DNA from: Chakrabartia godavariana | GTDB taxonomy: Bacteria; Pseudomonadota; Alphaproteobacteria; Sphingomonadales; Sphingomonadaceae | Length of the DNA: 64,000 bases | NCBI GenBank assembly: GCA_005518185.1 | Contig: RKSN01000002.1 | Span: 310,001-374,000, forward strand | Direction of reading: 5' to 3' | Shown: positions 47,295 to 52,812 of the stretch, in pieces | How the letters are laid out: each line of letters starts with the position of its first letter | Numbering within the stretch: the stretch's first letter is position 1 | Translations under genes and position numbers: made by a program | The notes under the pieces: model-generated | The model's database searches: none | What the model was told of the DNA's origin: nothing | What the model saw: the letters and a program-made list of their open reading frames with translations, nothing else

Positions 47295-48779
47295 CTACGC
47301 CGCCCGCCAGTGGATGAGGCCATCCTCGCCCCGCTCGGTGCGTCCTTTCGCGCCGACAGGCTCAATGGCTCCGTCCGTCAGGAACGCGATCATGCCCTCG
47401 TCCACCGCATCGACGCGCGCCAGCACGCGGGCATCTGCAGCAGTCCGCGCGATGATCGTGCCGAACTTCACCGAACCGTCGCGGTTGTAGAAGACGGTGT
47501 AGCTTTCGATCGTCGCTGCGCCCTCATAGCCATCGTCCGCCTCGGGCACGGCACCGCGCATTGCGTCGGCCAGAGGGTTCACATCATAATCGTGCGGGAA
47601 GATCGCGTCGGGGAGCGGGTCTGCCGACAGGACGATGCCGTGGAAATGGGTCGCATAGCCGCCATTGGCGAAGAGCATCGCCGTGCCACGCTCGGCGCGC
47701 AGCTTATCGACCATCGAGGCGATGGCGTGGCTCATGTAATTGCCGATGGGGCCGCCACCGAAGGTCAGGCCGCCAAAGGCCGTGATCGGCCTGTCGACGG
47801 GCCAGCCGAGAATGCGCCGCGCCATCTTGGGCACGCAGGGGAAGCAGGAATAAAGCTCGACATGGTCGAGATCGGCCGTCGTCAGTCTGTTGCGCTTGAG
47901 CGTCTCTTCGATGGTCACGACCATGCCCGCAGGCTGCTCATATTGGTCGCGCTTGAGCATGTTGTGCGTCTCATGCGCAGCCGCGCCCATGCCGACATGG
48001 ATGATGTTCGCCGCAGGCACGCCAGCGGCCTGTGCGACCGCCAGCGAGGTGACGATGAACCCTGCGCCCTGATTGACGCTGGAATTGGCGACCATCCGCT
48101 TCTGGTAGGGGAAGGCGATCGGGCGGTTGTCCGCTTCCACGCTGATGATCGCGTCGGCGGTCTGCGGCTTCCTGATCCAGGCATTTTCATTGGCAGCGGC
48201 GACTGCCGACATGCCTGCCCAGATCATGCCCGATTCCGCCTGCGCCTCGGCGAGCGTCTGCCCCCAGGCCGCGCGAGTCGCGTTCTCGTAAAGCGGATAG
48301 AGATCGGTCGGCGCGACCAGGCCATGCTGCTGCATCAGCGACTTTGTGCCGCCTGAGGCCACGTCGCGCAGGGCGTCCTTCTTCTCGCCGGTCGCCGCGC
48401 GCGCGCGTTCTGCTGCCGTGCGCAGTGCCTCGGCCCCGACGATCGCCGCGACCGAAATCTCGCCTGCGCCAATGCGGTTCGCCGCTTCATTGAGCAGCTG
48501 CACCGGGCTTTCACCCGTCGGGTAGGGCGTCTGTTCAACGATCTTGGGCGCGATGCCGAAATGCTGCGCCAGATGCTCCGCACAATTGCCAAGCCGGGGG
48601 AAGCTGATCTGGTTGACGACGGCAATGCTGTCGAGCTTGCCAATCCACCCGCCGCCCGCGTCCGCATCCGCCTTTTCCAAGGCCGCGACCATCAGGCCGA
48701 GCGAGTCGTGGACGCAGTCCCGGTCATTGAACTGGCCGACGCCGATGATGACGGGAATGCGGGCGGGATCGGTGTTCAT
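47295..48779 (-). CDS. Thiolase-like protein with extra C-terminal domain (TLP1-type, SCP2 thiolase-like)
   Basis: A 494-residue thiolase-fold protein. The N-terminal half reads VIIGVGQF and IVGAEAL at family positions, and the C-terminal half has FGGLTFGGGPIGNYMSHAI. Where real thiolases carry the nucleophilic cysteine, the sequence is PTGESPVQLL, with no cysteine; a later CFPC is not at the usual place. About 100 residues extend past the thiolase core, the mark of type 1 thiolase-like proteins described in mycobacteria. It starts 4 bases after the AMACR-type gene and is probably cotranscribed. Degradative thiolase activity is doubtful. Confidence 0.85.
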   Translation of the reverse strand: MNTDPARIPVIIGVGQFNDRDCVHDSLGLMVAALEKADADAGGGWIGKLDSIAVVNQISFPRLGNCAEHLAQHFGIAPKIVEQTPYPTGESPVQLLNEAANRIGAGEISVAAIVGAEALRTAAERARAATGEKKDALRDVASGGTKSLMQQHGLVAPTDLYPLYENATRAAWGQTLAEAQAESGMIWAGMSAVAAANENAWIRKPQTADAIISVEADNRPIAFPYQKRMVANSSVNQGAGFIVTSLAVAQAAGVPAANIIHVGMGAAAHETHNMLKRDQYEQPAGMVVTIEETLKRNRLTTADLDHVELYSCFPCVPKMARRILGWPVDRPITAFGGLTFGGGPIGNYMSHAIASMVDKLRAERGTAMLFANGGYATHFHGIVLSADPLPDAIFPHDYDVNPLADAMRGAVPEADDGYEGAATIESYTVFYNRDGSVKFGTIIARTAADARVLARVDAVDEGMIAFLTDGAIEPVGAKGRTERGEDGLIHWRAA

Positions 48780-48783
48780 GAGA

Positions 48784-49830
48784 TCAGCCCTTCCGTCCCA
48801 CAGGTTCCGCCGCCGGTGTGCCGAGGAAGCGCGGCGCAGGCGCCGGCTGGTCGACGCCGTTCACCTTCACGAAGGTGCCGCGCGCGACATTGTGCGGATG
48901 GCTGAGTGCCTCGCCCATCGACTGGATCGACCCGAAGCAGATGTCCGTCCCCTCCATGATCGCTGCCCATTCATCACGGGTCTTGGTCTTGAAGATGTCG
49001 GTGAGCTTTGCCTTGAGGACCGGCCACTGGCTCTTGTCCATCTGCGCGTCAAAGGCGGGGTCCGCATCGAGGCCGAGCGTCTTGCGCAGCAGCGCGTAGA
49101 ATTGCGGCTCGATCGACCCGATCGAAATCCACTTGCCGTCGGCGCATTCATAGGTGTCGTAGAAGTGGGCGGCGGTATCGAGCATGTTCACGCCGCGCGC
49201 GTCTTCCCACATGCCCATCCCGCGGAAGCCCCACTGCATCGCATGGATGATGGAGGCGCCATCGGTCATGGCGACGTCAATCACCTGCCCCTTGCCGCCG
49301 CGCGCGACATTGAGGAGGGCCGCAACCATCCCGAACGCGAGCATCATACCGCCGCCGGCAAAGTCGCCAATGGCGTTGGTCGGCGGCGTCGGCTTGCCAT
49401 CCGGGCGGCCATAACCGTGGAGGTTACCCGTGATCGAGATGTAGTTGATGTCATGCCCGGCAGCCATCGCGAGGGGCCCTGTCTGGCCCCAGCCGGTCAT
49501 GCGGCCGTAGACGAGCTTTGGATTGTCGGCGAGCAGCACGTCCGGGCCAAGGCCCATGCGCTCCATCACGCCCGGGCGGAAACCTTCGAAGATGCCGTCA
49601 GCGGCCTTCACGAGGTCGCGCACTTGCGCCACGCCCTCGGGCGACTTGGTGTCGATCTGGACGATCTCGCGGTTGCGGGTGAGGACGTCGCGACCCTGCA
49701 TGTCATGCGCGCCGACGCGCTCCACGCGGATGACGCGCGCGCCGTGATCGGCCAGCATCATCCCGGCAAACGGCCCCGGCCCGATGCCTGCCATTTCGAT
49801 GATCGTGATGCCGTCCAATACGCCTGCCAT
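48784..49830 (-). CDS. Alpha-methylacyl-CoA racemase / CaiB-BaiF family CoA transferase
   Basis: A 348-residue CoA-binding protein of CoA-transferase family III. The segment NAIGDFAGGGMMLAFGM (aspartate near 152) and DGASIIHAMQWGF match 2-methylacyl-CoA racemase more than CaiB-type transferases, which have a catalytic aspartate earlier in another context. The start at 49830 has GGAG 6 bases upstream; an ATG 12 bases earlier is worse placed. It leads a two-gene unit with the thiolase-like gene and is divergent from phaC. A role in inverting methyl-branched acyl-CoA before oxidation is inferred. Confidence 0.88.
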   Translation of the reverse strand: MAGVLDGITIIEMAGIGPGPFAGMMLADHGARVIRVERVGAHDMQGRDVLTRNREIVQIDTKSPEGVAQVRDLVKAADGIFEGFRPGVMERMGLGPDVLLADNPKLVYGRMTGWGQTGPLAMAAGHDINYISITGNLHGYGRPDGKPTPPTNAIGDFAGGGMMLAFGMVAALLNVARGGKGQVIDVAMTDGASIIHAMQWGFRGMGMWEDARGVNMLDTAAHFYDTYECADGKWISIGSIEPQFYALLRKTLGLDADPAFDAQMDKSQWPVLKAKLTDIFKTKTRDEWAAIMEGTDICFGSIQSMGEALSHPHNVARGTFVKVNGVDQPAPAPRFLGTPAAEPVGRKG

Positions 49831-49880
49831 GTCTCTCTCCATTTCGCTCTGTCTGCGCTTTGAACCAAGCGTTGGAACGC

Positions 49881-49898
49881 CTTGACGTTTGCGTCAAG
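49881..49898. promoter_or_regulatory. Palindromic operator between the racemase and phaC genes
   Basis: CTTGACG-TTTG-CGTCAAG is a perfect 7 bp inverted repeat with a 4-base spacer. A related half, CTTGACCTTTG, follows 35 bases later. It lies in the middle of the 147-base divergent region. The pattern is reminiscent of TTGACGT-type sites of MerR-family regulators of branched-chain acyl-CoA breakdown, but no such regulator is in the window. Confidence 0.5.
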
Positions 49899-49977: not shown

Positions 49978-51660
49978 ATGGCAAAGATGCCGAAGGGCCT
50001 CGAAGAGGCTGCGGATGCGGGTGTGGCACTCAATCCTTTGGTCGGTCTGGCGCGCGAGGATCTGGTCGGCGCGGTCGGCGTGATGCTGAAGGCAACGGCG
50101 AGCCAGCCGGGCAAGGTCATTGAACACACCAAGTCCTTCGCCGACGATGTCATCAAGATCATCACGATGAAATCGGACATCGCGCCCAACCCCAAGGATC
50201 GGCGCTTTGCTGACCCGACCTGGAGCCAGAACCCTTTCTTCAAGGCGGGGATGCAATATTACCTCGCCGCCGAAAAAGGCGTGAAGAACTTCATCGGCGA
50301 TCTCGAGCTGGATGAGCTGGAGCGCACGCGCGCACATTTCGTGGCGGGCATGGTGATCGACTCGCTCGCGCCGACCAACACGCTGGCGGGCAACCCGGCC
50401 GCGCTCAAGAAAGCGGCGGAAACCGGCGGCGCCTCGCTGATCCGTGGCCTCAAGAACGCCTATGACGACATCGTCAACAACGACATGCTCGTGTCGCAAG
50501 TCGACAAGCGGCCCTTCAAGATCGGCGAGAACATCGCCTGCACGCCAGGCGCGGTCATCTACCGCACCGAGCTGATGGAGCTGATCCACTATAAGCCGAC
50601 GACCGAGAAGGTGCATGAGACGCCGCTGCTCATCATCCCGCCGCAGATCAACAAGGCCTATGTCAACGATCTGAGCCCCGACAAGAGCATCGTCCGCTTC
50701 CTCCTCGCCAACGGACAGCAGACCTTCCTCATCAGCTGGCGCAACCCGACCAAGGAACACGCGCATTGGGGCCTTGCCGATTATATCGACGGAATCATCG
50801 AAGCGATTGGTGTCATCTGCGAGGTGACGGGCGCGAAGCAGGTCAATGTCTCCGGCGCCTGTTCGGGCGGCATCACCATGTCGGCCATGCTCTCCAAGCT
50901 GGCCGCCAAGGGCGACAAGCGCGTCAACGCGGTCTCGCTCATGGTGTGCGTCCTGAAGCCCGAGATCACCGACAGCGAGGTCGGCTCGCTTGTCTCCGAA
51001 CATGGCATTGAACTCGCCCGGCAGAGGTCGCGCAAGGCGGGTGTCTTGGATGGCGCATCGCTCTCGCGCATGTTCGCGTGGCTCCGGCCGAATGATCTCG
51101 TGTGGAACTATGTGGTCAACAACTACCTTCTAGGAGAAGACCCGCCCGCCTTTGATATCCTCTTCTGGAACAACGATGCCACCAACCTGCCCGCCCAGCT
51201 CCATTCGGACTATCTGGACCTTTACGGGAACCAGCCCTTTGCCGAGCCGGGCACGGCGGAGATCGCCGGGCATCTGGTGGATCTGACCAAGGTGACGAGT
51301 GACCTCTACATCGTGGCGGGGGTGACGGACCACATCACGCCGTGGAAGGCGTGCTATCGCTCGACGCAGTTGTTCGGCTCCAAGAACATCGAGTTTGTGC
51401 TGTCGCATTCCGGGCATATCCAGGCGATGCTCAACCCGCCAGGCAATCCAAAGGCCAAATTCTACCGCGCCGATGGCAAGGCGCCGCCGACGCCCGAAAA
51501 GTGGATGGCAAAAGCGGAAGAACATGCCGGAAGCTGGTGGCCGCATTGGGCGGAATGGCTCAAGGCACGGTCCGGCGCCGAGGTCACGCCGCCCGCCGAG
51601 CTGGGCAGCAAGGCCCATCCTCCGGTCGGGCCCGCGCCCGGCCAATATGTATTTGACTGA
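49978..51660 (+). CDS. phaC: Polyhydroxyalkanoate synthase
   Basis: PhaC polymerises 3-hydroxyacyl-CoA to storage polyester at the granule surface. The 560-residue protein has the lipase-like box SGACSGG with nucleophile Cys295, Asp451 (GVTDHITPW) and His480 (SHSGH), the full triad of PHA synthases. The middle sequence (FWNNDATNLPAQLHSDYLD) resembles the synthases associated with medium-chain substrates as much as class I enzymes. A strong SD (TAGGAGGGGAA) precedes the ATG. phaZ follows after 14 bases. The repressor gene phaR is elsewhere in the window. Confidence 0.93.
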   Translation: MAKMPKGLEEAADAGVALNPLVGLAREDLVGAVGVMLKATASQPGKVIEHTKSFADDVIKIITMKSDIAPNPKDRRFADPTWSQNPFFKAGMQYYLAAEKGVKNFIGDLELDELERTRAHFVAGMVIDSLAPTNTLAGNPAALKKAAETGGASLIRGLKNAYDDIVNNDMLVSQVDKRPFKIGENIACTPGAVIYRTELMELIHYKPTTEKVHETPLLIIPPQINKAYVNDLSPDKSIVRFLLANGQQTFLISWRNPTKEHAHWGLADYIDGIIEAIGVICEVTGAKQVNVSGACSGGITMSAMLSKLAAKGDKRVNAVSLMVCVLKPEITDSEVGSLVSEHGIELARQRSRKAGVLDGASLSRMFAWLRPNDLVWNYVVNNYLLGEDPPAFDILFWNNDATNLPAQLHSDYLDLYGNQPFAEPGTAEIAGHLVDLTKVTSDLYIVAGVTDHITPWKACYRSTQLFGSKNIEFVLSHSGHIQAMLNPPGNPKAKFYRADGKAPPTPEKWMAKAEEHAGSWWPHWAEWLKARSGAEVTPPAELGSKAHPPVGPAPGQYVFD

Positions 51661-51674
51661 AGAAAGTGATCGAT

Positions 51675-52517
51675 ATGGGACGCGCGAAACCTGACACTCG
51701 GCCCGAAATCCGGATGGTATCCGTCGAAGGACGCGAGGTCCGCATGGCGCACTGGGATGCCGGTGAGGCGGGTCAGGACGCCCTGCCCGTCCTGTTCTTC
51801 AACGGGATTGGCGCGAACATGGAACTCATCGCGCCATTTGCCGAACGCCTTGGCCGCAATGTCATTACCTTCGACATGCCGGGTATTGGCGGCTCGCCCG
51901 ACCCGGTCTGGCCCTACCGTCCGTGGATGATGGCCCGCGTGGCGGACAAGATCCTTGATGAGCTCGGCTATGCCGAAGTCGACGTGATGGGCATCAGTTG
52001 GGGCGGCGCGATGGCGCAGCAATATGCGATCCAATATGCCAAGCGCACCAACCGGCTCGTCCTCATCGCAACCACCGCCGGCATGCTGATGGTGCCCGGA
52101 AAATGGTCCGCGCTGAGCAAGATGGCCAACCCGCGCCGATATGTTGAACCGGACTATATGCTCAAGAATTTCAATGAGTTGTATGGCGGTGTGAGCAATG
52201 GATCTGACGGGCATGTCAGCCGCATCAAGGCGCCCTCGATGCTCGGCTATTTCAACCAGCTGTTCGCGATGGCAGGCTGGACAAGCGCGCCGTTCCTCCC
52301 CTTCCTCCGCCATGAAACGCTCGTCCTGATGGGCGAGGAGGATGCAATCGTCCGCCCGATCAACGGGCGCATTCTGGAGACGCTGATCCCCAATGCGCGC
52401 ATGGTGACGATCAAGGATGGCGGCCACCTCTTCCTGATGAGCCATGCCGACCAATGCGTGCCCATCATCGAGGGCTTCCTCGACGCAGGGCATCGGGCCG
52501 AGGCCAAGGCCGCCTAA
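51675..52517 (+). CDS. phaZ: Intracellular medium-chain-type PHA depolymerase (alpha/beta hydrolase)
   Basis: Alpha/beta hydrolase of 280 residues that looks like pseudomonad PhaZ, which breaks stored medium-chain PHA: FFNGIGANMELIAPF, TFDMPGIGGSPDPVWPYRP and MGISWGGAMAQQ (nucleophile Ser108) are in order, followed by the family stretch VPGKWSALSKMANPRRY, an acidic site in MGEEDAIVRP and the catalytic histidine in DGGHLFLM. There is no signal peptide, so it acts inside the cell. I chose the ATG at 51675; a GTG at 51666 is also possible. It lies directly behind phaC in one unit. Confidence 0.88.
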   Translation: MGRAKPDTRPEIRMVSVEGREVRMAHWDAGEAGQDALPVLFFNGIGANMELIAPFAERLGRNVITFDMPGIGGSPDPVWPYRPWMMARVADKILDELGYAEVDVMGISWGGAMAQQYAIQYAKRTNRLVLIATTAGMLMVPGKWSALSKMANPRRYVEPDYMLKNFNELYGGVSNGSDGHVSRIKAPSMLGYFNQLFAMAGWTSAPFLPFLRHETLVLMGEEDAIVRPINGRILETLIPNARMVTIKDGGHLFLMSHADQCVPIIEGFLDAGHRAEAKAA

Positions 52518-52562
52518 AGGCCGCGTCTTGCCAATCACGCCAGAGCGGCGTAATCGCCGCTG

Positions 52563-52722
52563 CGTGACAGGTGCTCCGTAACAGGAGCTGAAAAGGGAAG
52601 TCGGTTCAAATCCGGCGCTGTTCCCGCAACTGTAACCGGCGAGTTCCTCTCCGACGCACCACTGGGCAACCGGGAAGGTGGAGAGGCGCAATGACCCGGA
52701 AGCCAGGAGACCTGCCCGTCAC
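52563..52722 (+). ncRNA. Cobalamin riboswitch
   Basis: The conserved elements appear in order: the start of P1/P2 (GACAGGTGCTCC), a GAAAAGGGAA block, the CCGGCGCTG/GCAACTGTAA core, and the B12 box AGCCAGGAGACCTGCC at 52701-52716. The first bases (CGTGAC) pair with GTCAC at the end to close P1. A further hairpin (CAGCC-AGTCCTTC-GGCTG) and a TTTCCTC stretch lie between the aptamer and the btuB SD, and could form the switching part. It should turn off btuBFCD when B12 is plentiful. Confidence 0.95.
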
Positions 52723-52812
52723 AGCCAGTCCTTCGGCTGTGCGGGAAGACGCAGGCGAACGGGGGTTTCCTCGCGTGACGGCAATTGGAGTCGTTATGCG
52801 AAGGAGATTGAA

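Follow-up and report, generated by a model that had tools for sequence, protein, structure and literature searches.

The window analyzed here, a 64,000-nt stretch of Chakrabartia godavariana DNA, contains phaC, a gene for a class II-type polyhydroxyalkanoate (PHA) synthase, and phaZ, which codes for a putative PHA depolymerase (Table 1). As stated in the initial annotation, phaC is directly followed by phaZ. Both open reading frames (ORFs) are intact and lie on the same strand, with a gap of 5 nt between the phaC stop codon and the GTG start of phaZ; a second in-frame start candidate for phaZ is the ATG at 51675. The two genes are presumably cotranscribed. No sign of a recent transfer of the pair was seen: the GC contents of phaC (0.617) and phaZ (0.615) are close to that of the window (0.637), and both genes branch with those of sphingomonads. 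With moderate confidence, we interpret phaC-phaZ as a second module for PHA synthesis and mobilization, of class II type and probably fed by acyl coenzyme A (acyl-CoA), whose monomers most likely include units of six or more carbons (C6+), probably mixed with C4 units. The observations behind this interpretation are gene content and order, phylogeny, active-site and substrate-range residues, and a palindrome together with its distribution in the genome.

Table 1. Features at and around the phaC-phaZ pair (positions are those of the window)
Feature	Position	Strand	Description
Thiolase-like (acetyl-CoA acetyltransferase-like) gene	47295..48779	-	NF006106, 606.6 bits (cutoff, 684); behind the CoA-transferase gene; association with the pair uncertain
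Family III CoA-transferase/racemase-like gene	48784..49842	-	Pfam CoA_transf_3, 280 bits; divergent from phaC, common promoter region
Palindrome CTTGACGTTTGCGTCAAG	49881..49898		Within the divergent promoter region of 135 nt; predicted as an operator of a putative acyl-CoA catabolism regulon
phaC	49978..51660	+	Class II-type PHA synthase; ATG start, 560 amino acids, ORF intact
phaZ	51666..52517	+	Alpha/beta-hydrolase depolymerase of the pseudomonad medium-chain-length (mcl) PHA type; GTG start, 283 amino acids, intact
Cobalamin riboswitch	52552..52733	+	RF00174, 124.7 bits; directly 3' of phaZ

Among the NCBIfam models, the window PhaC scored highest with that of class II synthases (TIGR01839, 686.7 bits), which exceeded the class I model (TIGR01838, 532.7 bits) by 154 bits, and the class III model reached 119.1 bits. 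Pfam PhaC_N matched with 209 bits. For the pair, sequence searches of the PDB retrieved five PHA synthase chains besides general hydrolases. For comparative analyses, relatives were collected with two peptide patterns; of at least 590 candidates that were confirmed, the best 80 (the best-80 loci) were used, a set biased to near relatives. A maximum-likelihood tree was calculated from 54 PhaC rows, 28 from the best-80 loci (picked for spread) and 26 others; one genome is represented twice (L045 and L151), two other pairs are nearly identical, only six rows are class I, several end branches are long, and the root is not given by the tree itself. The six class I rows were separated from the 48 class II-type rows with a support of 100/100, and the window PhaC fell on the class II side. 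Together with 34 other rows from Sphingomonadales, Caulobacterales, Hyphomonadaceae, Parvibaculaceae, and others, it formed a clade (97/97) whose sister group (96/85) comprised Pseudomonas-type PhaC1 and PhaC2, a Bradyrhizobium row, Cupriavidus, and one row each from two alphaproteobacterial families (f16, this row being present twice, and f19, locus L152). The window clade is sister to the Pseudomonas group and not nested within it. Pseudomonas-type rows (family f52) were recognized by their phaC1-phaZ-phaC2-phaD arrangement and, in the case of locus L145, also by scores above the cutoffs, its PhaC1 reaching 1037.6 bits with TIGR01839; a search for a Pseudomonas anchor among plasmids yielded only a 100-residue fragment (H56). 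On the basis of model scores and tree, assignment of the window PhaC to class I was rejected. Judged by sequence, the synthase itself, and not PhaZ alone, is pseudomonad-like, which goes beyond the initial annotation.

The resemblance of PhaZ to the pseudomonad enzyme acting on medium-chain PHA, on which that annotation was built, was borne out. Its best NCBIfam model was TIGR02240, poly(3-hydroxyalkanoate) depolymerase (232.7 bits; next family, 85.1 bits), compared to 47.5 bits with the short-chain model NF050089, and the protein is 42 to 44% identical to PhaZ of four genomes with the phaC1-phaZ-phaC2-phaD arrangement. A genome-wide scan with TIGR02240 returned the window PhaZ as the single serious match (233.1 bits; next, 34.6 bits). 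TIGR01849, the model of intracellular polyhydroxybutyrate (PHB) depolymerases, did not appear in the top 25 of 31 NCBIfam families for the window PhaZ, and its sole match in the genome is another gene; a TIGR01849-type PHB depolymerase was accordingly rejected as the identity of PhaZ. Ser111, Asp226, and His254 are shared by 38, 37, and 37 of 38 aligned rows, respectively. A PhaZ tree of these 38 rows reproduced the deep division of the PhaC tree (99/98). Phylogenies of both proteins had been suggested as a check in the initial annotation; their common split indicates a long joint history of phaC and phaZ.

Residues of PhaC were compared with the 559-residue PhaC1 of L145, in which Cys296, Asp451, His479, Glu130, Ser325, Ser477, Gln481, and Leu484 match the positions in the literature; the class II positions 325, 481, and 484 were taken from the descriptions in PMC3815930, PMC6403647, and PMC4636328. 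The catalytic residues of the window PhaC are the nucleophile Cys295, Asp451, and His480. Aligned with positions 130, 325, 477, 481, and 484 are Asp, Cys, Ser, Gln, and Leu (in the numbering of the window PhaC, Asp128, Cys324, Gln482, and Leu485 for positions 130, 325, 481, and 484). Gln481 was found in all 100 class II-type rows, among them 80/80 best-80 loci, 11/11 others, and 8/8 Pseudomonas-type rows, and was absent from class I (0/6); Leu484 was found in 74/80 best-80 loci, 8/8 Pseudomonas-type rows, and 0/6 class I rows. Position 325 is occupied by Cys in 69 of the best-80 loci, by Ser in all eight Pseudomonas-type rows, and by Thr or Ala in class I. Asn at this position was seen only in L065 to L068 and L070 (Phycosocius, a Maricaulis metagenome-assembled genome [MAG], Aquidulcibacter, and a Hyphomonadaceae MAG) among 106 aligned rows. 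For Pseudomonas class II enzymes, changes at positions 130, 325, 477, and 481 are reported to shift the substrate range (PMC3815930, PMC6403647), and Cys at position 325 may broaden that of the window PhaC. Asp at position 130 was dropped as a sign of short-chain specificity, since four Pseudomonas-type PhaC2 rows also carry Asp.

Similar phaC-phaZ pairs occur in many alphaproteobacteria. PhaZ (at least 150 bits and no more than 6 kb behind PhaC) was present in 78 of the best-80 loci, and the other two lie at contig ends (PhaZ of L063 is truncated there, and the contig of L089 stops within phaC), which argues against a chance pairing. Inserts between phaC and phaZ were seen in L074 (2.4 kb) and L086 (1.6 kb). 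In the closest relative, L061, the PhaC copy is 93% identical to that of the window and the pair is kept at 89 to 93% identity. A TetR protein was encoded near 29 and a PF05597/TIGR01837-type phasin near 26 of the best-80 loci, with both near 25. The TetR protein is 33 to 36% identical to its counterpart encoded downstream of phaC2 in four pseudomonad-type clusters. In three of these four, two phasins beside that TetR are matched by the phasin, the fourth (L146) ending at a contig end; we read the TetR protein and the phasin as putative PhaD and PhaI/F homologues. Going by record titles, none of the best-80 loci with TetR or phasin is from a sphingomonad; beyond the 80, two loci of the same order (L163 and L164) have both. 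Two MAGs labelled as Acidobacteriota (L112 and L113) carry phaC-phaZ with PhaD-like and PhaI-like proteins and adjoin Hyphomonas in both trees, a placement due to either transfer or wrongly binned contigs.

The C. godavariana genome also encodes a class I PhaC (L002, contig C3; TIGR01838, 629.7 bits with a cutoff of 622.65; TIGR01839, 393.5 bits), likewise beyond the initial annotation. It hence has one phaC followed by phaZ in the window and a second, class I phaC on another contig, with no phaC1-phaZ-phaC2 arrangement. Elsewhere the genome encodes a TIGR01849 PHB depolymerase (L144, C2:619928-621133; 562.6 bits, cutoff 300.75), two Phasin_2 proteins, and four MaoC-type proteins as possible suppliers of (R)-3-hydroxyacyl-CoA. 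One MaoC-type gene (L171, C2:616120-616440) lies ∼3.5 kb from the PHB depolymerase gene. Among 246 genomes surveyed in the order, a PhaC match was present in 222. A class II-like PhaC, defined as a match of at least 460 bits and counted by eye, was present in 81 genomes, 68 of them in the family of the window (f1) and 13 in family f5. These proteins are 52 to 100% identical to the window PhaC, and all other matches listed are at most 42% identical. The pair had been presented in the initial annotation as unusual for alphaproteobacteria; it is no oddity of one strain, given these 81 genomes. Since each of the 68 same-family genomes encoding a class II-like PhaC showed at least one other PhaC match, the pair constitutes an additional system and not a replacement. 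In family f5, the class II-like PhaC was the sole PhaC match in 12 of 13 genomes, and members such as those with L163 (G073) and L164 (G093) offer a natural test case for the polymer.

The palindrome between phaC and the divergent CoA-transferase gene recurs in the genome. The pattern TTGACGTNNNCGTCAA was found at 5 exact sites in 3.17 Mb, compared to none for the reversed pattern as a control. Besides the site at phaC, these were located before an acyl-CoA dehydrogenase gene (L181), before an amidohydrolase gene followed by a CoA-transferase gene (L180), between a pair of acyl-CoA dehydrogenase genes and a major facilitator superfamily (MFS) gene (L182), and upstream of a small ORF that clusters with a P450 gene and an ORF that reads as MarR-like (L179). 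Allowing up to one mismatch, there were 27 places, the 5 exact ones and 22 with one mismatch; in the corresponding control, the backward pattern gave 0 and 2 rows versus 23 and 18. Ten of the 22 were chosen by their palindromic center before the genes were seen, and the remaining 12 were taken afterwards. The 10 sites precede genes for a carboxyl transferase, an aldehyde dehydrogenase, GTP cyclohydrolase I, an electron transfer flavoprotein (ETF) subunit, an enoyl-CoA hydratase, a thiolase, an acyl-CoA dehydrogenase with a divergent short-chain dehydrogenase/reductase (SDR), an ATPase-like ORF without family match, a nitronate monooxygenase, and an acyl-CoA ligase; six of these are plainly and two possibly related to acyl-CoA, and two are not. 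The class I phaC and the PHB depolymerase gene had none of the 27 places in their vicinity. The distribution of the palindrome, mainly before genes of acyl-CoA degradation, suggests that the pair is supplied from acyl-CoA catabolism.

A related sequence, TTTACGTGAACGTAAA, which differs from the palindrome at two positions, lies 13 nt before a MerR gene with an acyl-CoA dehydrogenase gene behind it (L223, C1:1060733 region). The genome has six MerR_1 matches, including this gene; of the other five, the four inspected showed no such site. The product of the gene, which we take to be LiuR-like from its family and context, is a candidate regulator of the putative acyl-CoA regulon. LiuR of diverse proteobacteria is a MerR-family protein reported to repress the utilization of branched-chain amino acids (PMC3223726, PMC5343134). 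Most of 151 loci (duplicates included) lack the palindrome before phaC, which indicates that this wiring is local to the lineage.

We infer the common transcript, the regulator, the supply route, and, above all, the chain length in the following scheme. PhaC would polymerize (R)-3-hydroxyacyl-CoA into intracellular granules through Cys295-Asp451-His480, and PhaZ, made from the same transcript, would hydrolyze the polymer back to 3-hydroxy acids through Ser111-Asp226-His254. The module would work beside the ordinary set of class I PhaC, PHB depolymerase, and phasins. The pair is probably switched on together with acyl-CoA catabolism under the MerR (LiuR-like) regulator, and because of this probable coexpression the monomers most likely derive from acyl-CoA of the β-oxidation type, enoyl-CoA being diverted to (R)-3-hydroxyacyl-CoA by an R-specific hydratase, possibly one of the four MaoC proteins.

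Several observations weigh against a medium-chain or mixed-chain module. The window PhaC is below both curated cutoffs (855.4 for TIGR01839 and 622.65 for TIGR01838), as is PhaZ below that of TIGR02240 (250.6), and a Cupriavidus homologue (L060, from C. campinensis) outscored the window PhaC with TIGR01839 (730 bits), so that this score is uninformative on the substrate. Position 325 carries Cys and not Ser. The genome contained no PhaD-like regulator, with only a 20-bit TetR match, and no PF05597 phasin match. Of the 12 palindrome sites taken afterwards, 10 lie inside ORFs, one before an ORF that reads as flavin-monooxygenase-like, and one in an ambiguous setting. The site before phaC was found otherwise only in L061 (one mismatch, same distance, -96) and perhaps in an Altererythrobacter MAG (L088). 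Supply from acyl-CoA is in line with medium-chain or mixed units and would also suit a short-chain polymer made from fatty acids. Finally, a sphingomonad with an analyzed polymer made poly(3-hydroxybutyrate-co-3-hydroxyvalerate) (PHBV), its synthases being described as class I (PMC9027588).

The strongest alternative, which we consider possible though unlikely, is that the module is class II by descent and short-chain by function, i.e., a second PHB/PHBV system for carbon sources (fatty acids, branched amino acids) other than those served by the class I enzyme. Its direct precedent is PhaC2 of Cupriavidus pinatubonensis JMP134, which is reported to group with class II, to be present in a single copy with phaZ in its cluster, to be highly transcribed on octanoate, and to polymerize 3-hydroxybutyryl-CoA and not 3-hydroxyoctanoyl-CoA (PMC4636328). 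Being class II by tree and short-chain by assay, this enzyme shows that sequence class does not fix the substrate. The departure of Cys325 from the Ser of all eight Pseudomonas-type rows and the PHBV reported for a sphingomonad point in the same direction, and the acyl-CoA regulon is compatible as well. However, the account of JMP134 PhaC2 points to Ile at position 484 (PMC4636328), a residue shared by L060, whereas the window PhaC and 74/80 relatives have the Leu of mcl enzymes. Moreover, a second PHB polymerase with a pseudomonad-type depolymerase would be redundant beside a full PHB set, and PhaZ scored far higher with TIGR02240 than with the short-chain model NF050089. With regard to the longer or unusual side chains hinted at in the initial annotation, the class II position of PhaC, Gln481, Leu484, and the palindrome speak in their favor; longer side chains are not established, as the case of JMP134 PhaC2 illustrates.

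Unusual monomers in particular appear improbable. A synthase accepting branched or otherwise unusual 3-hydroxyacyl-CoA would be in keeping with LiuR-like control (the MerR gene with its related palindrome, LiuR being described as repressing branched-chain amino acid use [PMC3223726]), with the racemase-like family III CoA-transferase and thiolase-like genes of the divergent operon, and with Cys325 in 69/80 loci. However, these two genes adjoin phaC-phaZ in only 1 of the best-80 loci, that of L061, and were rejected as members of the general module; the putative regulon also includes general acyl-CoA genes. The absence of any storage system in this strain, with PhaZ a general esterase or thioesterase and PhaC a little-used paralogue, could be argued from the sub-cutoff TIGR02240 score and from the solved-structure relatives of PhaZ by sequence, which are mostly esterases and other general hydrolases, but is very improbable in view of the intact catalytic residues of both proteins, the agreement of their trees, and the retention of the pair over many families and in the near-identical relative L061.

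We compared the proposed class II-type module with four known systems. With the Pseudomonas cluster phaC1-phaZ-phaC2-phaD-phaF/phaI it shares the order synthase-depolymerase, Gln481, and Leu484, its PhaC being 47 to 50% identical to PhaC1 of four loci and its PhaZ as similar as given above; homologues of PhaD and PhaI/F are encoded at wider alphaproteobacterial loci, too. Unlike that cluster, the window has a single phaC with Cys325 instead of Ser, the genome lacks PhaD and a PF05597 phasin, and the proteins fall below the TIGR01839 and TIGR02240 cutoffs and into a separate, well-supported clade. The phaC2 cluster of JMP134, as described in PMC4636328, likewise combines one class II-like phaC with phaZ in a unit, in a genome that has a class I phaC as well, but adds fadE, phaJ, and phaP, none of which adjoins the window pair, and encodes Ile484 in place of Leu; in this comparison JMP134 PhaC2 was set beside the window by description, with the C. 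campinensis homologue L060 as a stand-in for its sequence. On a plasmid of Bradyrhizobium sp. CB82 (MaoC-phaC-phaZ; L059), an annotated phaZ directly follows a phaC whose product is 48% identical to the window PhaC and carries the same Cys325, Gln, and Leu. In contrast to the window, a MaoC dehydratase and a fatty-acid-CoA ligase are encoded in the same run, PhaZ exceeds the TIGR02240 cutoff (300.1 bits), and the synthase branches with Pseudomonas. Pseudomonas sp. 61-3 (phbC with phaC1/phaC2) resembles our proposal in its working, with a short-chain and class II synthases (C4 to C12) and two polymers (PMC5615314). This likeness is by description; operon and lineage differ, and the behavior is experimental there and inferred here (PMC5615314).

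Class II-like enzymes outside Pseudomonas are already on record (PMC4636328). Searches of open-licence literature listed no account of the class II-type branch seen here in alphaproteobacteria. We tentatively propose, while considering it somewhat less likely than not, that a widespread and hardly described alphaproteobacterial class II branch (Sphingomonadaceae and Erythrobacteraceae through Caulobacterales and Parvibaculaceae; phaC-phaZ in many cases accompanied by phaD and phaI/F) produces polyesters of C6+ or mixed C4 to C12 units from acyl-CoA catabolism beside PHB, placed here in a MerR/LiuR-like acyl-CoA regulon, and that its natural Cys325 would make it a ready source of mixed-chain-length synthases. 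Medium-chain PHA has been described as an almost exclusive product of Pseudomonas (PMC8357295). If the module makes such PHA, elastic polyesters could be drawn from a large, often marine group, which would also offer synthases that differ at a residue position targeted in engineering. If its product is short-chain polymer only, it would be a large-scale case, after the single one of JMP134, in which the sequence-based class of a synthase fails to predict its polymer; either outcome bears on a general annotation problem. The common phaC-phaZ-phaD-phaI set also bears on the origin of the Pseudomonas cluster, for which derivation of the class II enzymes from alphaproteobacterial ones has been raised in a remark without further analysis (PMC5944434).

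Downstream of the pair, the cobalamin riboswitch opens the next unit, which leaves the pha unit with two genes alone. It is followed by ORFs that, named by reading, resemble a TonB-type receptor, a B12 binding protein, a permease, and an ATPase.

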